Shown here: positions 28,189 to 37,635 of the stretch, in pieces
How positions within the stretch are numbered: the stretch's first letter is position 1
Layout of the letters: each line of letters begins with the position of its first letter
DNA from: Moraxella haemolytica
GTDB lineage: Bacteria > Pseudomonadota > Gammaproteobacteria > Pseudomonadales > Moraxellaceae
Assembly (NCBI RefSeq): GCF_030177935.1
Contig: NZ_CP089974.1
Span: forward strand, 1,240,001 to 1,304,000
Direction of reading: 5' to 3'
Length of the DNA: 64,000 nucleotides
Translations under genes and position numbers: made by a program
The notes under the pieces: generated by a model
Told to the model about the DNA's origin: nothing
What the model saw: only the letters and a program-made list of their open reading frames with translations
Database searches by the model: none

Positions 28189-28222
28189 ATCTTTCAAAAG
28201 CTATCCCACCCATAAAACCAAG

Positions 28223-28263
28223 GGCTATCGCACGATTGCGGACAGCCCTAGATTGTTATATGG
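28223..28263. repeat. attL-like direct repeat, left end of the element
   Basis: It matches 37521-37561 at 37 of 41 positions. The first 16 bases (GGCTATCGCACGATTG) and an 11-base block (AGCCCTAGATT) are identical. The following GGAGTGGCG resembles the tRNA-Pro 3' end with three bases missing, so it may be the displaced tRNA tail. Confidence 0.75.
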
Positions 28264-28330
28264 AGTGGCGTACTACAAACAGGTAATTTAAATGATTGAT
28301 TTTATTATATTTATTTTTTAAATTTTTTTT

Positions 28331-28360
28331 CAATACCAACAATAATACCAACAAAATTCA
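28331..28360. repeat. Left arm-type repeat (30 bp)
   Basis: This is a perfect 30-bp copy, same orientation, of 37424-37453. It contains ATACCAACA twice. It starts 67 nt inside the left core repeat, the same distance as on the right side, and is a candidate integrase arm-binding site. Confidence 0.75.
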
Positions 28361-28418
28361 AAGTAACCCCTTATTTTACCATTTTTACCCACCTTTTTTT
28401 GTCATTCCAAGCAGATAA

Positions 28419-28446
28419 AAAAGAATGGTTTTTACACCATTCTTTT
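28419..28446 (-). terminator. Terminator after the large terminase gene
   Basis: AAAAGAATGGT (28419-28429) and ACCATTCTTTT (28436-28446) form a perfect 11-bp stem. On the minus strand the hairpin is followed by a T-tract and closes the capsid-terminase operon. Confidence 0.88.
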
Positions 28447-28450
28447 AAAT

Positions 28451-29839
28451 TTACCAACCTATAAGCCCACTACCACCGCCCCAGTGATAAGGTACAGTTA
28501 TGGGAAGTTGCTCTCTTCTCAACACGCCATATCTTAACGCATCAGCTCCGTGGTCTGCTCTATCACTTGCCATATCTTCAGGGCGTTTATCATCTCTGCA
28601 TTGAATTGGTAAAGTTTCCCATAAATATTTACAGTTAGCACAAATATATAAACCAGCTCTATCAGGTTTGCCAGCATCAGCTAATAATCGCCTTAATACA
28701 TTCCAACCTGTTATCCTGTCTGCTTTTTTTGCCCTGCTAAAATATACACCCTCCTTACTAAATTCATCAGCGATTGAACCGCTGGCGTGTCCACCCTTAG
28801 CAAATATCGCATCATCAGCAACGCCCCTAGCGTTTATCTGCCAATAATTACACATCTTTTTAATTTCTTCTGCCAGTGTTGGTACTGTCCAGCCCAAGCC
28901 AACATTTAAATTATTATGCTTGTGTGTTACCAACTCATCAACCACCACTATTGAGCCTTTGGGGTAATATCTGCCATTCACAGTATCGCCAAAACTTTCA
29001 CACATAACCAAAGTTGCAGACGGTGCAGACGAACCAAAATCATGAGATAACCACCAATTCCAACCCTCTGGAATTTCTTTCCATTCTTCAATCATTGAGC
29101 GTTTTTCATCAAGCACATTGGCAAAATACGCCCCACGATTAACCGCCCAATTACCATTTAACCATGCTTGCAATAATTCAGGGTCATCAGGGCAAGCCGC
29201 TTGTAATTGCTCTTGGTATTGTTCACGGTCAATAAATTGATTATCCAAGAAAGTACTACTTGCCGTTATCCAAGTGCGTTTGCTTTTTGGCTCGTGATAG
29301 GGTTGCCAGCTCTGATTACCATTAAATACATATCTTTTAGCTATCCAGTGATGCCCTACGCCAGCAGGGTTTGCACTTAGCACCATTCTAATGGGGATTT
29401 CTTCACTACCACGCAAATTTGAACGCATCAAATCTAATAACTTAAGGTCGGAATATTGCCCAGCTTCATCAACAACCAGTAAATTAAATGAACGCCCTTG
29501 ATATTTTGAATAATCTGCAAAGCTCTCTAGTTGTCCAAGCTCCAAATAACCACCGTTCGGAAAACGCCAAATATGTTCGGTTTGGTTGTATCTGGCACTT
29601 GTGCCATAAACCTTGCCAAACAGTTCACGACAAATCAACTCAAAATCCGCCAAGCCCTTATAAGTTTTTCTCAAAAACAATACTCGTGCTTTTTCCTTGT
29701 ATTTTTCAATATGGCGTAAAATTAAAATAGCAATGCCGTACGATTTGCCACCGCCACGCCCACCCAATAAGGCAATATCCACATTCTCGGGAATTAGTAA
29801 CATTTTATGTTGGAAATTATTTAGCTGTATGCCGTCCAT
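28451..29839 (-). CDS. Phage terminase large subunit
   Basis: TerL is the packaging motor and nuclease that cuts and pumps DNA into a procapsid through a portal. The 462-aa protein has Walker A LGGRGGGKS near residues 25-33 and Walker B FNLLVVDEAGQ (about 118-128). The coupling segment LSANPAGVGHHWIAKRY follows, as do RNaseH-like nuclease acidic residues in SHDFGSSAPS, VADDAIF and DRADHGADALRYG. Both domains look intact. Its ATG overlaps the TerS stop (TAATG). No portal gene follows, so it must use another source of portal if it functions. It is the last gene of the element. Confidence 0.93.
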   Translation of the reverse strand: MDGIQLNNFQHKMLLIPENVDIALLGGRGGGKSYGIAILILRHIEKYKEKARVLFLRKTYKGLADFELICRELFGKVYGTSARYNQTEHIWRFPNGGYLELGQLESFADYSKYQGRSFNLLVVDEAGQYSDLKLLDLMRSNLRGSEEIPIRMVLSANPAGVGHHWIAKRYVFNGNQSWQPYHEPKSKRTWITASSTFLDNQFIDREQYQEQLQAACPDDPELLQAWLNGNWAVNRGAYFANVLDEKRSMIEEWKEIPEGWNWWLSHDFGSSAPSATLVMCESFGDTVNGRYYPKGSIVVVDELVTHKHNNLNVGLGWTVPTLAEEIKKMCNYWQINARGVADDAIFAKGGHASGSIADEFSKEGVYFSRAKKADRITGWNVLRRLLADAGKPDRAGLYICANCKYLWETLPIQCRDDKRPEDMASDRADHGADALRYGVLRREQLPITVPYHWGGGSGLIGW

Positions 29840-30249
29840 TATTCAAGCTCCTTTGGATTAATCACTTTCATAAATTGCCCCAAGTCTTCAGCGGGTGCAG
29901 GAATGTTAAAAGTAATTGCCACTTTGTTTTGTTGTTCGGTTTGGTCGTATTCTTTATAGCCATGCCGTGCCTTTAACAAGAATATGGCGGCGGTTGTGTT
30001 ACCTTTTAGGGTTGCTTGTTCAAATAGTGCATTATGTAGGGCGTATCGCTCCTTTTCTAAGCCTAATTTGTAGGCTTCTTCCACTTCTGGGAACTTTTCA
30101 CGCCATGCATAAAATAAATCTTTGGATATTTTACAAGCCTTGCAAATACTAGGGATTGAATGTCCTTTACTGGCGTATTCTTCAATAAGTTGTAAATGCT
30201 GTTCGTTTGGTTGTTTTCGTGTTGCCTTAACTGCTGGATTTCGTGCCAT
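29839..30249 (-). CDS. Phage terminase small subunit
   Basis: TerS recognises the packaging site and hands DNA to TerL. The 136-aa protein starts with a basic stretch (MARNPAVKATRKQPNEQ) and then a helix-turn-helix-like region STSIC-type (GHSIPSICKACKISKDLFYAWREKFPE, in parts, residues 31-57), which is common in TerS and transposase-like DNA-binding domains. A helical oligomerisation part follows (EAYKLGLEKERYALHNALFEQATL). GGAGC precedes the ATG. Position directly before TerL supports the assignment. A hairpin (30270-30290) with a T-rich tail lies between the capsid gene and this gene and may lower TerS-TerL expression relative to capsid. Confidence 0.85.
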   Translation of the reverse strand: MARNPAVKATRKQPNEQHLQLIEEYASKGHSIPSICKACKISKDLFYAWREKFPEVEEAYKLGLEKERYALHNALFEQATLKGNTTAAIFLLKARHGYKEYDQTEQQNKVAITFNIPAPAEDLGQFMKVINPKELE

Positions 30250-30291
30250 TGTATTGCTCCGATAAAATAAGGGCTAAAAAGCCCCTATTTG

Positions 30292-31278
30292 TTATTTGCT
30301 GATTAAGAATGCTAAAGGAATGTTTTTGCGGTCGGTTACACGCTTCCAGTGTTCGGCTTTTGCTAGTTCTGCAATGGTTGGGCTTTCGCCTTGTAAATCG
30401 GCTTCCACCCAGCTAAATCCAAGCGGCTGGATTGCCACATTTAAGCGACTATGTAAAATCTGCATACCGCCACCATAGCCAGCACTTTCAATCACTTCTA
30501 CGGCTGTTGCATTGCTATGTTTAGGTGGTGCAATGCCATAACCAAACGCCCCACGCCCCAAAAGCACCGTTAAATAATTGCCTTGCTCATCAGGTGTTAA
30601 GCCGTCATCAATAATAACCATCAACCCCCTAAATGTTTGAAATGGTTTGCCGCTGCTGTCTTGTATGGTTTGGATTAGGTCATTTTTGAGTGCATCAAAG
30701 TAAATTTTTGAGTGCATTGCGATGGCTACAACATCCCCAAAACTATCGCCAAGTGTAGCAGCGGTGTCAATAACTGCAATGCTTGAAAAGCCGTTGTTTT
30801 TTGATAAGGTGCTAATGTCATGAACCATATCGCCAGCATCATTTACCTTGTTGCTTGCCAAAACACCTTTTAGACTGGCAATCAGTCGTTTTTGTAGCTG
30901 TTGTTGCCAATAGTCTTTTACTCGCTCTTGAATGGCTTCTAATGGGTTACTTCCTGCAATTTCAGCAGATAACCCCATAGACGACCAAGAATTATGCAAG
31001 TAGGCTTTGCGTGTTACTTGCTTATAGCTTGTGATTTTCTTTGGGGTTGAGTGTTCTTCGGGATTGTCCGAGATAATATCAGCTTCATCCCCATTTGCAA
31101 TATCACGCCAAAACGGAATATTAAACGAAGTTGAGCCACTTTGTAGCATTGTTGAGATTTGGGCATTTGGCAATAAAAGCCCACTTTTGACAAGATTTGA
31201 TTTTGTCGCTGTATTTTCTAGGATATAGCCTGTGAATTGTTCAGGTGCGATAATATCGCTTAATTGAGTGGTTGCCAT
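30292..31278 (-). CDS. Major capsid (coat) protein, MCP13-like
   Basis: The 328-aa protein matches the phage coat family whose members begin with a VPE/APE-type motif. Here the start reads TQLSDIIAPEQFTGYILENT, followed by SGSTSFNIPFWRDIANGDEADIISDN and KAYLHNSWSSMGLSAEIAGSNPLEAIQERVKDYWQQQLQKRLIASLKGVLASN (in parts). Later blocks SFGDVVAIAMHSKIYFDALKNDLI, RGLMVIIDDGL and LLGRGAFGYGIAPP are also typical. It should assemble the icosahedral shell, possibly of reduced size. GGAGAATATAAC precedes the ATG. The candidate scaffold gene lies directly upstream, the usual phage order. Confidence 0.88.
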   Translation of the reverse strand: MATTQLSDIIAPEQFTGYILENTATKSNLVKSGLLLPNAQISTMLQSGSTSFNIPFWRDIANGDEADIISDNPEEHSTPKKITSYKQVTRKAYLHNSWSSMGLSAEIAGSNPLEAIQERVKDYWQQQLQKRLIASLKGVLASNKVNDAGDMVHDISTLSKNNGFSSIAVIDTAATLGDSFGDVVAIAMHSKIYFDALKNDLIQTIQDSSGKPFQTFRGLMVIIDDGLTPDEQGNYLTVLLGRGAFGYGIAPPKHSNATAVEVIESAGYGGGMQILHSRLNVAIQPLGFSWVEADLQGESPTIAELAKAEHWKRVTDRKNIPLAFLISK

Positions 31279-31360
31279 GTTATATTCTCCAATAGCAAAT
31301 TAAAGTTATTGATGAATATTTTGCATAACAAAATAGGATAGGTCATAAACCTGTTTTGAA

Positions 31361-31392
31361 AAAAGATTAAAGCCCTGCATAGCAAGGCTTTA
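31361..31392 (-). terminator. Hairpin between scaffold candidate and capsid genes
   Basis: TAAAGCC (31368-31374) pairs with GGCTTTA (31386-31392). On the minus strand it is followed by AATCTTTTTTC. It may be a partial terminator that sets the ratio of the two proteins. Confidence 0.55.
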
Positions 31393-31419
31393 GCCCATTT
31401 ACGGAAGTTTTATTATACA

Positions 31420-32202
31420 CTATTGTAAGCCAAATTGTATAGGGATTACGCTGTTTTCTGCCTTTGCAATTTGTTTTTTATGCTCTTCTAGTGCGATAAT
31501 TTGTCTTTGGTAAAACTCAATACTATCTTGGCTGTTTTTGATTGATTTTTTTGCTTCTTGTAAATAATTCTCTGCAATCGCAACCGTTTTAACGCCATCT
31601 AAATTTACTTCTTTTTTACCATATATATTATTGTAGGCAAAAATATACCTAGCATATTTATTTTGTAATTCTCTTAACTCTTCTTCGCCCACCAATTCCC
31701 CATTAGGATTTAAAAATGCATATCCAGTCATTTGCACTTGGTCATAAGCCCTATCAATAATTTTAGTGCCAATCTTTTTTGGCGGTTGTTTTTGAAGCAC
31801 AATTCCATCAACATAACCGACCTTGTAACCCTGCTTCTTTAACTCAAACTGCATATAATCCATATATTCAGGGATAACATTTAACGCATATAATACCATC
31901 ATTTCATGTTGTGCTACTTTGTAGTCGTCCAATTCTTGTTTAATATTTCTTAATTGTTCAAGCTCTGTTTGCAAATTCTCCATTTCGGTTTTGGTTTGCA
32001 AATGGGCGGTTTTTTCAGCTTTTAATTTGCCAATAACTTCAATTTTTTTATTGTTTAATTTGTCAATTTCTATGGCTAAATCTTCAGCCGTTTTTGCTTG
32101 ATTTTCGGTTGGGTTTTCTTCAGGTGCTGGCGGTGTTTGCTCGTCCACCTGCTCCATATTTTCGTTTAAAACTTCTTGATTTTGTAAAGTCTCATTAGTC
32201 AT
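31420..32202 (-). CDS. Candidate capsid scaffold protein (260 aa)
   Basis: I do not recognise a named family. The N-terminal 110 residues are acidic, rich in E, Q and P, then strongly coiled-coil (about 45-115: DKLNNKKIEVIGKLKAEKTA, then LQTELEQLRNIKQELDDY). The middle is more globular (PEYMDYMQFELKKQGYKVGYVDGIVL), and the C-terminus is helical again (QEAKKSIKNSQDSIEFYQRQ). Acidic coiled-coil proteins encoded directly before the coat protein are usually scaffolds, and that is the inferred role here. Alternatives are a satellite size-determination protein or a minor head protein. It is the first gene after the repeat-flanked promoter. Confidence 0.55.
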   Translation of the reverse strand: MTNETLQNQEVLNENMEQVDEQTPPAPEENPTENQAKTAEDLAIEIDKLNNKKIEVIGKLKAEKTAHLQTKTEMENLQTELEQLRNIKQELDDYKVAQHEMMVLYALNVIPEYMDYMQFELKKQGYKVGYVDGIVLQKQPPKKIGTKIIDRAYDQVQMTGYAFLNPNGELVGEEELRELQNKYARYIFAYNNIYGKKEVNLDGVKTVAIAENYLQEAKKSIKNSQDSIEFYQRQIIALEEHKKQIAKAENSVIPIQFGLQ

Positions 32203-32280
32203 AAATATTGCTCCTTTGTGTCTAAAATTACAAATTTTAACGGTAAATTTTAAGATTTTTGCCCATTACTCTATTTTATA

Positions 32281-32430
32281 TGAACAAGTTGAGCATCTTG
32301 GACAAGTTGCCCTATTTATAAGGGTTGTAGCGTTTTTTGTCTTGAACAACTTGATTTTAACTTGTTCATCAATAAAACCCCTGCAAGCCTTGATTTTGCT
32401 TAAACTTGTTCAACTTGCTCAACTTGTTCA
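32281..32430 (-). promoter_or_regulatory. Promoter of the capsid-terminase operon with repeat array
   Basis: On the minus strand AAGACA (32343-32338), a 17-nt spacer and TATAAA (32320-32315) form a plausible promoter 110 nt upstream of the scaffold-candidate gene. Around it lies a family of 10-bp repeats. AACTTGTTCA is found at 32359-32368, 32403-32412 and 32421-32430, with a one-base variant at 32412-32421, so the last three form a tandem with a 9-bp period. The inverse TGAACAAGTT is at 32281-32290. Partial copies occur at 32301 and 32341. These look like operator or activator sites, or iterons next to the RepA-like gene. Confidence 0.65.
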
Positions 32431-32473
32431 TTATTATTTGTCATAATCATAAAAATTGATTGATATTGTAAAG

Positions 32474-34003
32474 TTATGTAAACGGAAAAGGTTCGCCATA
32501 ATCTACCAAATTAGCATTGCTTGACTGGATTTGATAACCGTGTTTTAGTCGCCAATACCAGCCATCAGATTTTTTATAAGGTCTATCACAAACAATCTCC
32601 CTTGCTCGTCTTAGGGTAATTGTTGTAATATCTGCTTCTTTGGCTAATCTTTGCACTTCACTTGATTTCATCTCTTTATGTTCTCTTAATAATTCAACCA
32701 AGAATGCTTTGGCTTCATCAAGCAATGTTGGTTCTTTTTCCTCCTGTTCGTCTTGTTCATTTAATAGCTCTTTGGCTGTGCCATTTTGAAAATTACCCCA
32801 TTCAATTTTTGTAGTAGATATGCCGTCCACTTCACAAGGGGTAATGTGATATTCAAAACCACCGTCTAGCTCTGATATGTTACTTTTGGCTCTGGTAAAG
32901 ATGCAAGGCTTTTCAGGCTCGTCAGGTCTATTAGCAACCCAACTCATGCGACTTAATGCCGTAAATGCCTGCGAACCAATAATCCTATCAGCAGGGCTTG
33001 CCCCTTTTGAGCCTTTGGCAAAGTGTGTAATGCCAACAACTGCACAATTAAAATCCTGTGCAAAGTCCACAAGAATTTGTAAGCCATTTCTCACATCATT
33101 GGCTTTGTTCATGTCCTTGTCAATGGCGGATATGATGGGGTCAATCATAAGTAGTTTAATATTTTTACCCTGTGCATAGTCATACAGTAAGGGCAAATCT
33201 TCTGATGCTGTGAACGCCACAAGCTCGCCTTTTTCATCAGTCTTAGCAGTAATAAAATTGATATTTGCCAAATTTGCACTGTTCGCCATTAAGCGTGGTT
33301 TGATGGTATCTGATATGTCGTCTTCGGTGCTGTAAATGATGATTTCGCCTTTGTCTGTGCATTGTGTTCCATCTGGAAATACACCGCCATTACTGATTGT
33401 AGCAATCAGATTTAACAAAATGTTGGTTTTGCCAGCACCGCCAGCACCAGCAAAAACGGTTAATTTACCCAGTGGTAGCCAATCTTGCCATAGCCATTGA
33501 ATGGGCTTAGCTTCAATGTCATTAGCATTGGTTAATACCAGCTCTTTTGTACCGTTGATTAGTGATAAAATACGCCCTTTGGTCGCACCTTGTGGAATGT
33601 TGATTAAATGCTTTTTAAAACCTAGTCTTAAATCGCTTGTGCTTGCGATTTTAAAGGGGATTTTGTTTTGTTCGGCTGTTAGTACTAGGCTGTTAATATC
33701 GTTGCTATAAACGCAATCTACGCCCATTTCAAGCAGTTTTAAAAACAAGGCTTGATTATCGGTCAAAATGGGTATGCCATCGCACACACCCATAAAGTCG
33801 CCATCATTGCCAAAAATAAAACCTGTTTTGTCTTTGGTGATGAGCTTATAACCCACTTTGGCAAAAGTAAAATCAAGTAGGGGCAAGGCATACCCACCCC
33901 CAAAGTCCACACCATCAATCACACAATTTTTAAGCCTAGAACTTCCGTTTAGGTAGGTTTCTAGCTCTGTGATGGTTGTCATGGTTTGATTGTTTAGTAT
34001 CAT
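32474..34003 (-). CDS. RepA-like AAA-family ATPase (satellite replication helicase candidate)
   Basis: A RecA/RepA-fold ATPase common in phage satellites and small plasmids. The ATG at 34003 overlaps the upstream 58-aa gene stop (ATGA), giving 509 aa; a TTG five codons earlier is possible. Walker A is VFAGAGGAGKTNILLNL near residue 185. Walker B-like LLMIDPIISAID and the VVGITHFAKGS segment follow, as in hexameric RepA helicases. The N-terminal 150 residues look like a Toprim-like or primase-associated domain (LITKDKTGFIFGNDGDF), but I cannot confirm a primase. The C-terminal 90 residues are a winged-helix-like DNA-binding region. It probably drives element replication. Confidence 0.8.
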   Translation of the reverse strand: MILNNQTMTTITELETYLNGSSRLKNCVIDGVDFGGGYALPLLDFTFAKVGYKLITKDKTGFIFGNDGDFMGVCDGIPILTDNQALFLKLLEMGVDCVYSNDINSLVLTAEQNKIPFKIASTSDLRLGFKKHLINIPQGATKGRILSLINGTKELVLTNANDIEAKPIQWLWQDWLPLGKLTVFAGAGGAGKTNILLNLIATISNGGVFPDGTQCTDKGEIIIYSTEDDISDTIKPRLMANSANLANINFITAKTDEKGELVAFTASEDLPLLYDYAQGKNIKLLMIDPIISAIDKDMNKANDVRNGLQILVDFAQDFNCAVVGITHFAKGSKGASPADRIIGSQAFTALSRMSWVANRPDEPEKPCIFTRAKSNISELDGGFEYHITPCEVDGISTTKIEWGNFQNGTAKELLNEQDEQEEKEPTLLDEAKAFLVELLREHKEMKSSEVQRLAKEADITTITLRRAREIVCDRPYKKSDGWYWRLKHGYQIQSSNANLVDYGEPFPFT

Positions 34004-34176
34004 TGCACACCCTCCCAACTGTCAAAAGTTTGGGTTAGCTTGTAGCGGTCAATATGGGCGGTTGGATAGTCTTGTGCCAGCTGTGTGGCAAAAGTATGGG
34101 CGGTGTCAAAGTCGCTAAATTCTTTGTAAATGCCAAATTTTTGCACACGGACGATATAAATAACACTCTTTTGCAT
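34000..34176 (-). CDS. Small protein (58 aa), coupled to the RepA-like gene
   Basis: This short gene reads MQKSVIYIVRVQKFGIYKEF and ends with FDSWEGVQ. Its ATG overlaps the stop of the 75-aa gene (TAATG), and its own stop overlaps the RepA-like start (ATGA). Such double coupling strongly suggests it is translated. The sequence looks like a small beta-alpha fold with a lysine/tyrosine-rich start; no function is recognised. Confidence 0.7.
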   Translation of the reverse strand: MQKSVIYIVRVQKFGIYKEFSDFDTAHTFATQLAQDYPTAHIDRYKLTQTFDSWEGVQ

Positions 34177-34403
34177 TACACACCCCCAAATAACGCTGTA
34201 ATGCGTTCTGTGATGGTTTTTGGCTTAGGTGGTACATTTGCCCCATCTTGTGCATTAAGTAGCTTTACAAGCTCATTCATGGCGTTGTAGATGGCATTGG
34301 CTTTATCGCCATGTCCTGCATGGGGATTTTGGGTGTGTAGTTCGCTATGGCGGTGGTATTCGTCTGCTAGGACGGTTAGGGAATGGTGTAGAAATGCGGT
34401 CAT
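34176..34403 (-). CDS. Small satellite protein (75 aa)
   Basis: No family recognised. The ATG at 34403 has TAGGAGCGTCAATC before it, the same ribosome-binding block that precedes alpA. The protein starts MTAFLHHSLTVLADEYHRHS and ends PKTITERITALFGGV; it is helical and histidine-rich near the N-terminus. An open frame continues 110 codons upstream, but that part overlaps a highly structured region and is probably not coding; in P4-type satellites comparable open frames overlap the immunity RNA. The gene is coupled to the 58-aa gene downstream. Confidence 0.65.
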   Translation of the reverse strand: MTAFLHHSLTVLADEYHRHSELHTQNPHAGHGDKANAIYNAMNELVKLLNAQDGANVPPKPKTITERITALFGGV

Positions 34404-34453
34404 GATTGACGCTCCTATTAGTTTAGTTAGTTTTGCCAACCACAACAAGGGTT

Positions 34454-34678
34454 GGCGGGTCTCAACTACCGCTAATAGACGGCTGTACATATTCCCCAAA
34501 AAGGGTATTGTATTCTGCACTATCAACCCGCCATAAACTGTTAGTACATTGTCTGTACTTAGTAATGACGATATATTTACACCTGTGGAATGTGTAGGCG
34601 TAAAAATAGCCAATGAATGACGGTTTGGCTTTACCGCTATTAGATTAGTAGTGGCGGTATTATTGTCCACGCCTACAC
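34454..34678 (-). ncRNA. Candidate immunity/antisense-type regulatory RNA region
   Basis: Three inverted-repeat pairs are stacked here. GTGTAGGCGT (34592-34601) pairs with ACGCCTACAC (34669-34678). TACCGC (34632-34637) pairs with GCGGTA (34654-34659). GGCGGGT (34454-34460) pairs with ACCCGCC (34526-34532). On the minus strand one TACCGC (34659-34654) can pair with either of two GCGGTA copies (34637-34632 or 34472-34467), so alternative folds are possible. This resembles the immunity regions of satellite P4 (CI RNA) and phage P1 (C4 RNA), which also overlap apparent ORFs. Inference only; promoter and ends are unknown. Confidence 0.4.
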
Positions 34679-34763
34679 TTTTTGCAAGTGAAATATTTTT
34701 AATAAATTCTTGTTTTAATGAAATTTCTTTCATGTTATAATTACCTTGTCAAGTTTTAGTTTC

Positions 34764-34793
34764 AAAAAGCCCTGCCATTGTGCGGGGTTTTTT
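34764..34793. terminator. Terminator after the alpA-type gene
   Basis: GCCCTGC (34769-34775) pairs with GCGGGGT (34782-34788) allowing a G-T pair. A-rich and T-rich flanks make it work in both directions. On the minus strand it separates alpA from the replication block. Confidence 0.75.
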
Positions 34794-34995
34794 ATGCACT
34801 ATATTCATTCAACCATTGATGAATATCGCTGTTACGCCATACGGTAACGGTGGCTGATAGCTTGATGGGTGGTGGAAATTTGCCAGCCTTTACCCACGCC
34901 CACACAGTAGATTTACCAATGGGCAAAAATGGTAGGATTTGACTAATACGGCTCATGCCGTCTTTGGGTAGGGTTGTTGGCTTGTCTTGGGTCAT
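34792..34995 (-). CDS. AlpA-family DNA-binding regulator
   Basis: A 67-aa MerR-like/AlpA helix-turn-helix protein. Landmarks are SRISQILPFLPIGKSTVWAWVKAGKFPPPIKLSATVTVWRNSDIHQWL (in parts), with the helix-turn-helix at about residues 15-36 and the wing VTVWRNSDI. In P4-like elements and PICIs, AlpA proteins activate integrase/excision or the replication operon. A strong AGGAGCG ribosome binding site precedes the ATG. The GTTACGG repeat array lies immediately upstream and is the obvious candidate target; one copy also lies inside the gene (34843-34851). Confidence 0.9.
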   Translation of the reverse strand: MTQDKPTTLPKDGMSRISQILPFLPIGKSTVWAWVKAGKFPPPIKLSATVTVWRNSDIHQWLNEYSA

Positions 34996-35050
34996 GATAT
35001 ACGCTCCTAGATGGAAATGGATTTAGGGCGTATTGTAGGGGGTGCATATA

Positions 35051-35160
35051 CCGTTACGGCAATACCATAACGGGTTACGGTTCGCACCGTTACGGTGGTG
35101 TTACGGTAGTTTTGGGCAATAAAAAACCCTTGCAAATCAAGGCTTGCAAGGGGTAACGGT
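35051..35160. repeat. GTTACGG repeat cluster (iteron- or operator-like)
   Basis: CCGTTACGG occurs at 35051-35059 and 35087-35095. GTTACGG occurs again at 35074-35080 and 35100-35106. A near copy CCATAACGG lies at 35065-35073, and the reverse GTAACGGT at 35153-35160. A further inverted copy lies in alpA at 34843-34851. Six clustered copies in the 110 bp before alpA suggest a replication origin or binding sites for AlpA or another element regulator. Confidence 0.65.
35120..35152 (-). terminator. Terminator after the 136-aa unknown gene
   Basis: CCCTTGCAA (35127-35135) and TTGCAAGGG (35144-35152) form a perfect 9-bp stem. On the minus strand it is followed by TTTTTT. It lies within the GTTACGG repeat region. 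Confidence 0.85.
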
Positions 35161-35166
35161 AAAAGT

Positions 35167-35577
35167 TTATTTTTGGTCTTGATGGCGTATGATTTTATCA
35201 ATCCATAACGCCTTACTTGGGTCAATACTGGGGTATTTTTCAACTATCCATTTTTTGATAAATTCCTGTTTTGGTGGTGTTTTTGGGTTTTGCCAATGGG
35301 TATTCATCACATCAAACAAGGCGGTTAATGCGGTGTTGGTGTGAATTGGTTTTTCTACATTAGCAGGCGTGCTGTTTTGCGTGGCAAGCTGTTGTTCAAG
35401 CTCTGCTATGCGTGCTTGTAGTCGTTCATTTTCTTGTTGTAGGTCGGTTGGTTGGTTAAAAATTGAGTCCAGTTGGGTGGTTGGCTTGTCATTAAACGAA
35501 AAATTAGGGTCAAATTCTCTAATGATGTTTAAAATTTCAGATTTTTTAAAACCTACTATGTTTGCTAAATAACTCAT
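35167..35577 (-). CDS. Unknown satellite protein with coiled coil (136 aa)
   Basis: Not recognised. The start ATG at 35577 follows GGGGAAAAAT and reads MSYLANIVGFKKSEILNIIR; a start eight codons earlier would overlap the upstream gene. Residues 45-70 (LQQENERLQARIAELEQQLA) form a clear leucine-zipper-like coiled coil, so it is probably a dimer. The C-terminal half reads EFIKKWIVEKYPSIDPSKALWIDKIIRH and is helical. The N-terminal 30 residues may be a small DNA-binding helix-turn-helix (LANIVGFKKSEILNIIREF), so a regulator or partition-like role is possible. It lies between the unknown 108-aa gene and alpA. Confidence 0.7.
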   Translation of the reverse strand: MSYLANIVGFKKSEILNIIREFDPNFSFNDKPTTQLDSIFNQPTDLQQENERLQARIAELEQQLATQNSTPANVEKPIHTNTALTALFDVMNTHWQNPKTPPKQEFIKKWIVEKYPSIDPSKALWIDKIIRHQDQK

Positions 35578-35587
35578 ATTTTTCCCC

Positions 35588-35914
35588 TTAAAATGGTACA
35601 TTTCTGTGATAACGCATACTCATAATGGCTTTTTTGATAATATCTATTTTGTAATAAAAAGTTTGCCCATTTTTAAGGGTGTAAATCTCTTGAAAACCCC
35701 CTATTCTTTCATCAATTGGTTGCCAAACTTTATATTCATTTTCATAAATGGTTATATCGCCTTTGTTTTCGTCTATATGCTTTTCTAAAATATCAATTAA
35801 AATGGCTTCGGCTGTTTCTATTTGTTCATCTAGTCCAATGTGCTGATGAATAGCATTCACAACTTCATCAATGGATATATAACCAATATCATTTATTAAG
35901 CTCTTTAAACTCAT
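35588..35914 (-). CDS. Unknown satellite protein (108 aa)
   Basis: Not recognised. The ATG at 35914 (MSLKSLINDIGYISIDEVV) has AAGG six nt upstream; a TTG start nine codons earlier is unlikely. The protein is acidic in the middle (EKHIDENKGDITIYENEYKVWQP), then has TLKNGQTFYYKIDIIKKAIM. No membrane segment or known motif is visible. It starts 114 nt after the integrase stop, past a hairpin, and ends 10 nt before the coiled-coil gene, so these two genes probably form one transcript. Confidence 0.6.
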   Translation of the reverse strand: MSLKSLINDIGYISIDEVVNAIHQHIGLDEQIETAEAILIDILEKHIDENKGDITIYENEYKVWQPIDERIGGFQEIYTLKNGQTFYYKIDIIKKAIMSMRYHRNVPF

Positions 35915-35942
35915 CTCATACCTTATCCATACCTTAACCAAA

Positions 35943-36013
35943 TAAAATGCAAGGCGTGGCGGTCTAAGGTATGAAAAATAACCGCCGTTCGGGTAATTAC
36001 TCCTAGCCTTGCA
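35943..36013 (-). terminator. Nested hairpin after the integrase
   Basis: TGCAAGGC (35948-35955) pairs with GCCTTGCA (36006-36013), enclosing GGCGGT (35958-35963) with ACCGCC (35981-35986). On the minus strand the structure is followed by TTTTATTT. It probably ends integrase transcripts, but the size of the fold leaves room for a regulatory RNA role. Confidence 0.6.
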
Positions 36014-36027
36014 AAACTTTTCAATAA

Positions 36028-37372
36028 TTATTGCATCAACTCTGTCATTTCCAATCTATGCACCGCCAATTCATCAACGATTTCATGGTCTTTGTATCTA
36101 AGTGCTTTTAAAAAGCTAATAAATGCCTGCTCGCTGTGGTCGGTCATGCGTTTGTTTTTGTAGCTGTCAAAATTGCCGTGTTTGATTTCATCAACGATAT
36201 TTGCCCAGTCGTTCATCATTCTGGTGCGTGCTGGCAATAGATTGGCTTCATTGTACGCTCTTACCGTCTTATTACCCTGCACATGGGATAATTGCAATTC
36301 TATGGCTTGTGGTGGGTATTGCATTTCATAAAGGCTGGTACTTGCCAAGCCACGAAAGCCATGTCCAGTCATACGCCCTTGATAGCCCATTGTTTTTAGT
36401 GCTTTGGTAAAGGCGTTTTCTGATAGGATTTCTTTTTTTCTGCTACGGTTGCTACAAAATACAAATTCGTCATGTAGCTTCATGGCTTGAATGTCTTTTA
36501 AAATTTTAACCACTTGTGGGGCAAGCGGTACAATGTGGGGGTAAGCCGTTTTTCATGCGGTCGGCTGGAATGTGCCATAAATTATTTTCAAAGTCCAATT
36601 CTTGCCATCTCATGCCCCTAAGCTCTTTGGTGCGAACAAAGGTATAACACATCACATAAAAGCCATATTTGGTTAATAGCTCGCTGTTACTGCTGTCAAT
36701 GTCTGCTAGAAGCTGGGGAAGTTCGGTTATCTTAATGCGTGGGTAATGCTTAGTCTTGTGTTCGCATAGGCTTTTACCAATGTTTCTTGGAATGGGATTG
36801 TATAGGTTTTCTGCCAATCCCTTTTCTATGGCATAATCATAAATAGCAGTTATCCAGCCAATCACTCTATGGGCGGTGCTGGTCTTTCCTACGACTGCTA
36901 AGCGGTCATGCACCGCCATAATGTCAGGCAATCGCAAGGCATAAATGTCTTTATTGCCAATGATGGGATAAATGTGGTTATGGTAGGCACTCTTATCCCG
37001 TTTGAATGTGTGGGGCTTAGTGCGTGTTTCGTGGTGTTCTAGCCACTTTTGAGCAAATACATCAAAACAAGTATCAACCTGCACGGCTTTGGCTTGCTTG
37101 GCGTGTTCTTTGGGGTCTATGCCTTGTGCTAGCAGTCTTTTAAGCTCTGCAAGCTCTTCCCTTGCTTGTGCTAAGCTGATTTGTGGGTATTGCCCTATGG
37201 ATTGGTTGGCTTGCTTTCCTTGATAGCGATAAGCAATAACCCATGATTTAACACCTGTATATCTAACCCATAATTGCAAGCCGTTCATGTCGCTGTACTT
37301 GTCAGGAACTTTGGTATCAATGCTCTTTTGTGTTGGTACTAGCTTTTTGATTTTGGTATCTGTTAAAGCCAT
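36028..37372 (-). pseudogene. P4-type tyrosine integrase, frameshifted
   Basis: The reading frame runs from the ATG at 37372 through an N-terminal arm-binding domain (MALTDTKIKKLVPTQKS) and core-binding domain. It then reaches the first catalytic arginine in FVRTKELRGMRW, but shifts frame after MKNGLP. The other frame carries the rest of the catalytic domain: HGFRG (HxxR), QLSHVQGN and the nucleophile region TVRAYNE. Removing one base from the C5 run on the minus strand (G5 at 36537-36541) restores a 447-aa protein of normal make-up. Either the gene is inactivated, or this is a homopolymer sequencing error or slippage. No other integrase is present in the element. Confidence 0.88.
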
Positions 37373-37395
37373 AATTGATAAGCCTTTGGGTGTGA

Positions 37396-37453
37396 TTTGT
37401 TGGTATTGAAAGAATGTGAACTACAATACCAACAATAATACCAACAAAATTCA
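37396..37453. repeat. Right arm-type repeat and inverted half site
   Basis: 37424-37453 is the perfect 30-bp partner of 28331-28360 and ends 67 nt before the right core repeat. An inverted partial copy TTTGTTGGTATTG lies at 37396-37408, between it and the integrase start, and could let integrase repress its own gene. Confidence 0.75.
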
Positions 37454-37520
37454 TGGATAGCAATAGACTATAACGGACTACATAAGACAATAAAACCGCC
37501 TAAACCCTAGAAAAATCAAA

Positions 37521-37561
37521 GGCTATCGCACGATTGTGGATAGCCCTAGATTATAATATGG
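37521..37561. repeat. attR-like direct repeat at tRNA-Pro
   Basis: This is the right copy of the 41-bp core. It contains the hairpin GGCTATC/GATAGCC (37521-37527 and 37537-37543 region) that acts as the tRNA-Pro terminator on the minus strand, and it runs into the tRNA CCA end at 37559-37561. Confidence 0.75.
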
Positions 37562-37635
37562 TCGGAGTGGCGGGATTCGAACTCGCGACCCCTTGCACCC
37601 CATGCAAGTGCGCTACCAAGCTGCGCTACACCCCG
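37559..37635 (-). tRNA. tRNA-Pro (anticodon GGG)
   Basis: The minus-strand 77-nt sequence folds as a tRNA. The acceptor CGGGGTG pairs with CACTCCG, the D arm is GCGC...GCGC, and the anticodon stem is CTTGC/GCAAG with loop ATGGGGT (anticodon GGG). The T arm is GCGAG-TTCGAAT-CCCGC, followed by A73 and an encoded CCA. The T stem has an A52-C62 mismatch. The satellite is integrated immediately at its 3' end. Confidence 0.95.

Follow-up and report, generated by a model that had tools for sequence, protein, structure and literature searches.

The DNA considered here, referred to as the window, is a stretch of 64,000 nucleotides of the Moraxella haemolytica chromosome (contig NZ_CP089974.1, positions 1,240,001 to 1,304,000). 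Within it lies a satellite element of about 9.3 kb, which occupies window positions 28214-37561 on the minus strand, between the gene for a Lon-family protease and a ThrE-like gene. Read from a neighbouring tRNA-Pro gene, the element consists of an integrase gene, two accessory open reading frames (ORFs; p144 and p117), an AlpA gene, the ORFs p185 and p58, a gene for a RepA-like AAA_25 ATPase, a set of iterons, p260, the major capsid protein (MCP), the small and large terminase subunits (TerS and TerL) and an att site. A preliminary description of this DNA had named the integrase, AlpA, RepA-like protein, MCP, TerS and TerL, and all six are present on the minus strand. The element is a real, conserved type of satellite. 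We consider it likely that it belongs to a family which encodes a shell like that of phage SPP1 and, in this branch, a two-subunit terminase, and which relies on a helper phage for its portal, connectors and tail.

Genes, ends and integration site

The head genes are the most telling part of the element. The MCP (30292-31278) matches PF20036 (4e-10) and phrog_247 (3e-94), and a profile of the MCPs of the satellite clade described below matches the SPP1 coat protein 4an5 at 2e-66; judged by these profiles, it is homologous to SPP1 gp13. TerS (29839-30249) matches phrog_309 (2e-18). TerL (28451-29839) matches Terminase_3 (1e-13) and phrog_2 (2e-35), has the Walker A motif GGRGGGKS and other conserved motifs; a TerL profile found no match among PDB sequences. 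Directly upstream of the MCP gene is p260 (31420-32202), a coiled-coil ORF that is probably, though not certainly, the scaffolding protein. The equivalent ORFs of two metagenomic relatives, L134 and L132, match the head scaffolding family phrog_206 (1e-10 and 3e-11, respectively), and a profile of satellite scaffolds aligns with one of phage scaffolds at 98.7% (E 4e-16). By hhalign, p260 itself aligns with the satellite scaffolds at 87% (E 4e-6) and gives no significant match to the phage scaffolds directly, so that the link arises only via the satellite proteins. Both SPP1-type head features, a gp13-type MCP and an adjoining scaffold, are therefore present, the scaffold link being moderate for the window and strong for the clade.

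The integration target is a tRNA-Pro(ggg) gene found by ARAGORN (37559-37635, minus strand). The flanking direct repeats beside it had been described as 41 bp long; the repeats are indeed there, but they are imperfect, extending over 50 nt at 88% identity, and they include the CCA end of the tRNA and the terminator hairpin. Part of the 3' end of the tRNA, CGCCACTCC, is likewise duplicated. The tRNA-side att site (37512-37561, minus strand) was delimited by the repeat and by comparison with an empty site. The far att site (28214-28270, minus strand) comprises a copy of the tRNA-Pro 3' flank and terminator (28214-28263) together with a CGCCACT core remnant, and resembles the empty site of genome G007. 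To judge by that site and by the occupied site of Moraxella oculi, the far copy is probably the original flank of the host, and the near copy was probably carried in by the element. Inside both ends there is a perfect 30-bp repeat, to which no strand is assigned, at 28331-28360 (just beyond TerL) and 37424-37453. These are probably the arm sites of the integrase, since the type of repeat (GTTGGTATT or CGGGGTAT) and the type of integrase N-terminal domain change together across four elements, as arm sites should. Those four (the window element, its siblings L010 and L011, and the cousin L064) have two repeat types and two domain types, as if exchanged jointly. With att copies and arm repeats at both ends, the element ends directly beyond TerL.

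The tyrosine integrase (36028-37372), with Arm-DNA-bind_3 and Phage_integrase domains, is present as first described, but not as one frame: an extra C in a C5 run near 36540 splits it, whereas the frames of the two siblings are open (445 and 447 aa). This frameshift (36500-36560) may have locked the copy in place or may be a sequencing error. The AlpA-type regulator or excisionase (34792-34995) matches Phage_AlpA (8e-10), and the RepA-like ATPase (32474-34018) matches AAA_25 (1e-23). The 271 bp after repA (32203-32473) carry 9-bp iterons, GAACAAGTT and GAGCAAGTT, in direct and inverted orientation, and are a probable replication origin. The features general to satellites are thus all found: a site-specific integrase (frameshifted in this copy) with att repeats, AlpA, a replication module of its own and no tail genes. 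Of the remaining early ORFs, p58 (34000-34176) is small and has a 63% homologue in the capsid-less cousin L064, and p185 (34176-34733), to which no function is assigned, is 91% identical in L010 and has a shorter relative in L011. The accessory ORFs p144 and p117 (35167-35941) have no counterpart in either sibling, and gave nothing convincing in PHROGs and no defence genes by PADLOC.

Siblings and the wider family

The satellite TerL is present in three of 22 Moraxella genomes, namely the window genome, a Moraxella metagenome-assembled genome (L010) and M. oculi Tifton1 (L011). The search for the same layout in Moraxella and related genomes, which the preliminary description had proposed, therefore yielded two siblings, which have the same gene order, the same junction from TerL to Lon and the same host locus; because they share genes and order, the layout is more than chance. 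Among 349 genomes of the family to which Moraxella belongs, no further carrier of the satellite TerL was found at E <1e-30. Between the window element and L010, the synonymous divergence (dS) of MCP, TerS, TerL and RepA is 0.12-0.14, against 1.44 for the adjoining host Lon gene, and the element has therefore crossed between species recently. MCP, TerS and TerL are under purifying selection, the ratio of nonsynonymous to synonymous change (omega) between the window and M. oculi being 0.04 for TerS, 0.125 for TerL and about 0.13 for MCP. All core ORFs are open in the M. oculi copy; TerL of L010 (9492-10877) has a single in-frame TGA. The cousin L064 (G003:C63, 6.9-15.1 kb) is an 8.1-kb element at a tRNA-Pro gene in a different context, with the same type of integrase, AlpA and p58, a primase and no capsid genes.

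Beyond Moraxella, initial scans of IMG/VR with MCP and TerS came back empty, and a second MCP scan gave one phage contig at 37% only; these early scans were fruitless because their patterns had been derived from close relatives. An alignment of TerL opened up the family, giving 11 IMG/VR loci at 56-67% identity, the next matches being at most 29% identical over most of the length. The order MCP-TerS-TerL occurs in six of these (L132, L134, L136, L137, L138 and L142), and the other five (L133, L135, L139, L140 and L141) have no satellite MCP. An MCP alignment added L164-L168, with MCP-TerS-TerL again in L165 and L167, and a search of plasmids added Moellerella pW18-2-d and two Klebsiella plasmids. 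These three are circular 8.7-kb plasmid records (L177, NZ_CP093253, from Moellerella; L178, CP067839, and L179, LR890731, from clinical Klebsiella in the USA and Australia). The Klebsiella plasmids come from two isolates and are 99.7% identical; their MCP had no match in E. coli genomes. The plasmids, L164 and L168 have scaffold and MCP without TerL, with a DUF5681 gene after the MCP in L164 and the Moellerella plasmid; their replication genes include Rep_1 and DUF5906 types.

Several members can be followed from end to end. L134, at 9839 bp, has at each end a 47-bp copy of a tRNA 3' end similar to that of tRNA-Pro, and so runs from att to att, whether integrated or circular. L164 and L168 are circular: the ends of their contigs overlap by 127 and 144 bp, respectively, and in L168 joining them restores the full MCP. 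The att-to-att or circular members among the IMG/VR and plasmid records measure 7.8-9.8 kb.

The relationships of these proteins were examined in an MCP tree of 45 rows, in which satellite rows are the loci without a recognised portal. A single branch, with support of 100/99 and recovered in 200 of 200 bootstrap trees, separates the 15 satellite MCPs from the other rows. L134, L164, L168 and the Klebsiella and Moellerella plasmids belong to this satellite clade. One row, L166, is weak, as its contig ends shortly after the MCP, where there is a gp10-like ORF. Connector ORFs of this gp10-like kind lie beside a satellite-type TerL or MCP in L135, L139 and L166; in L135, moreover, TerL is followed by a tail-assembly-like ORF, and in L138 an adaptor-like ORF was noted by eye between MCP and TerS. 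A further element, L130 (G505:C21, about 8.6-15.9 kb), lies near a tRNA-Ser in a genome from another family of the same taxonomic order, and has an integrase, AlpA, an AAA ATPase, TerS, a 264-aa ORF and TerL (60%). With no MCP or portal, it appears to be a terminase-only cousin, and L133 is similar.

The missing portal and the proposed life cycle

No portal, protease, connector or tail family, and no HNH endonuclease, was found among the ORFs of the window element in Pfam or PHROGs (p117 and p144 being compared with PHROGs for the former families). Two portal profiles, one built from 16 phage portals and one from the portals of capsid-forming phage-inducible chromosomal islands (cf-PICIs), were run on all six frames, and neither matched the window element, its two siblings or 14 other satellite loci. 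The second profile recovers the portals of the Acinetobacter elements L065 and L066, from which it was built, and this shows only that the method works. Nor is there room for a portal, as had been noted at the outset: the gaps between ORFs of the window element are all below 300 bp, and the portals of relatives need 1.2-1.5 kb. In the same tree a portal is accounted for in 28 of 30 phage rows, by the 16-portal profile together with annotation; in the remaining rows, L172 and L173, the MCP is preceded by an ORF of about 600 aa that resembles a podovirus-type portal by eye only. The large ORFs of the complete satellite members are primases, Rep proteins or recombinases, apart from a 491-aa ORF in L168 without a named function; a 313-aa ORF of L132 likewise has none. 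It had been reasoned that homologous elements carrying a portal, a protease and tail genes in the corresponding position would mark the window element as a deletion remnant, and no such homologues came to light; the wider MCP clade is itself without a recognisable portal. The absence of a head protease, which had been noted along with that of the portal, is borne out by the searches, but it is uninformative, since SPP1 heads have no internal protease (PMC6813328) and none is annotated beside the MCP of the related phage HD01. The missing portal, by contrast, does carry meaning.

Phages with the same MCP family include prophages of Acinetobacter and other genera of the Moraxellaceae, Moraxella prophages and phages such as HD01. 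By annotation, their order is TerS, TerL, portal, MuF, scaffold and MCP, followed by neck and tail genes, with lysis genes interposed in phage Eta. The satellite order, scaffold-MCP-TerS-TerL, is permuted relative to this and cannot be reached from it by simple deletion. A 6974-bp Acinetobacter record, pVB2107_2 (L180, NZ_CP051476.1), is made up largely of genes for a phage head and appears to be a piece of a prophage filed as a plasmid.

The functional argument rests on SPP1. There, gp6 (portal), gp11 (scaffold) and gp13 (MCP) are necessary and sufficient for functional procapsids, gp11 and gp13 without the portal give procapsids of normal and smaller size, and pac cleavage requires nothing beyond TerS and TerL (PMC6316719); the terminase-DNA complex then docks on the portal (PMC6316719; PMC13212656). 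For gp1, gp2, gp11 and gp13 the satellite has equivalents of its own; for gp6, gp7, gp15 and gp16 it has none. As functional SPP1 procapsids need gp6, a portal vertex supplied by a helper is the simplest inference. In the life cycle that we propose, the integrase and AlpA would excise the satellite from the tRNA-Pro 3' end, and RepA would replicate it from its own iterons. TerS and TerL would recognise and cut satellite DNA, while scaffold and MCP would polymerise around the portals of a co-resident or infecting helper phage, into a shell presumably smaller than that of the helper. The satellite TerL would then dock on the foreign portal and fill the shell, and the connectors and tail of the helper would complete an infectious particle. 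The preliminary description had already proposed an intermediate or distinct type that supplies shell and motor and borrows portal and tail; shell and terminase without a portal are indeed what the element encodes, and the borrowing is what the SPP1 parallel suggests. The M. haemolytica genome has at least four portal genes (near 849, 1106, 1424 and 1752 kb) that are candidate sources of a helper portal, one of them in a resident prophage (about 838-877 kb) that has the same MCP family.

A number of points weigh against this proposal. The MCP of the resident prophage is only 25% identical to that of the satellite, none of the M. haemolytica portals matches SPP1_portal (PF05133), and no gene of that family was found in the three carrier genomes. 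Docking of TerL on the portal is probably rather specific. The absence of a portal is judged from homology and ORF size, by which a wholly novel portal could be missed, and several of the metagenomic members are incomplete contigs. Finally, single copies may be immobile, given the frameshifted integrase of the window and the in-frame TGA in TerL of L010.

Alternatively, the head genes might serve interference, with the satellite MCP and scaffold co-assembling with the helper capsid or disturbing it, and so shrinking or redirecting it, while TerS and TerL redirect packaging. It has been suggested that the PISP elements, which encode Capsid protein E, a protease and TerS, disrupt helper head assembly (PMC13230959), and the shared MCP family of the resident prophage would suit such a role. 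Co-assembly is nevertheless doubtful at 25% identity, and interference would not need a full-length MCP accompanied by a scaffold of its own and, in this branch, by TerL; we regard this explanation as possible but unlikely. Much less can be said for an ordinary cf-PICI that has lost its portal, protease, connectors and HNH gene. The window RepA is 45-46% identical to that of Acinetobacter cf-PICIs, in which the order is MCP-protease-portal-HNH-TerS-TerL-adaptor; the iterons after repA in L010, L011, L065, L066 and L067 resemble those of the window, L065, L066 and L067 being Acinetobacter satellites and the first two of these canonical cf-PICIs; and the MCP precedes TerS-TerL in both. Against this, no similarity was found between the head genes of the two, and the portal-less MCPs fall into a single clade within the SPP1-type phage MCPs, for which reason the head module seems to have been acquired separately, by a related replication backbone. 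Such a loss is thus very improbable, and the two kinds of element would appear to be related in their replication backbone and different in their head module. Decay of an ordinary siphophage by deletion of portal, MuF and tail genes, initially named as the main alternative, could account for the frameshifted integrase and the TGA in TerL of L010, but we reject it as scarcely credible in view of the gene order, the purifying selection, the recent transfer between species and the complete extrachromosomal members of the portal-less clade.

Significance and comparison with known systems

Known capsid-forming satellites make a complete head of their own and steal a tail. If the helper-portal proposal is true, this family moves the seam inside the head, with a foreign portal joined to the satellite's own shell and motor. 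Both the specificity of TerL-portal docking and the control of capsid size by the portal would become directly testable, the latter because SPP1 scaffold and MCP without the portal give two shell sizes. On balance we favour the broader view, with somewhat less confidence, that this is a widespread and apparently undescribed family of satellites that make the whole icosahedral shell and, in several branches, the full terminase as well, and take the portal from the helper, giving a chimera with its joint at the portal vertex instead of the tail. In the literature found, of which coverage was partial, no satellites with an SPP1-type shell and terminase but without a portal are described, and a search for Moraxella satellites gave nothing relevant. 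Such elements may be overlooked, as members are filed as 8.7-kb plasmids of clinical Klebsiella.

PICMIs, tycheposons and VEIMEs are, like the window element, small integrase-bearing satellites that rely on helper particles, but PICMIs are without packaging and capsid genes (PMC10803314). The Streptomyces satellites MulchRoom and MiniFlayer do encode capsid, scaffold and packaging genes (PMC10690885); unlike the element considered here, they also encode portal and adaptor, and their hosts and helpers are unrelated. The PISP satellite-plasmids have a capsid protein and TerS with no portal or tail reported, and their capsid clusters with satellites rather than phages. They differ in having a PF03864 capsid with a protease, in that no scaffold or TerL is reported, and in being episomal and confined to Vibrio (PMC13230959). 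SPP1 has a homologous MCP (4an5), the same scaffold, TerS and TerL roles and no internal protease (PMC6813328), but it is a complete phage, which also encodes the portal gp6, as well as gp7, connectors and a tail. A close parallel in layout is provided by the cf-PICIs, which encode MCP, protease, portal, connectors, HNH, TerS and TerL (PMC10690885). The window element shares with them the order integrase-Rep-MCP-TerS-TerL, the small size and a capsid and terminase of its own; it has no protease, portal, connectors or HNH, and its MCP is of the phrog_247/PF20036 kind and not of the HK97-type family found in cf-PICIs. As the definition of a cf-PICI includes portal, protease and connectors, the window element falls outside that class, although it may function much like one of its members.

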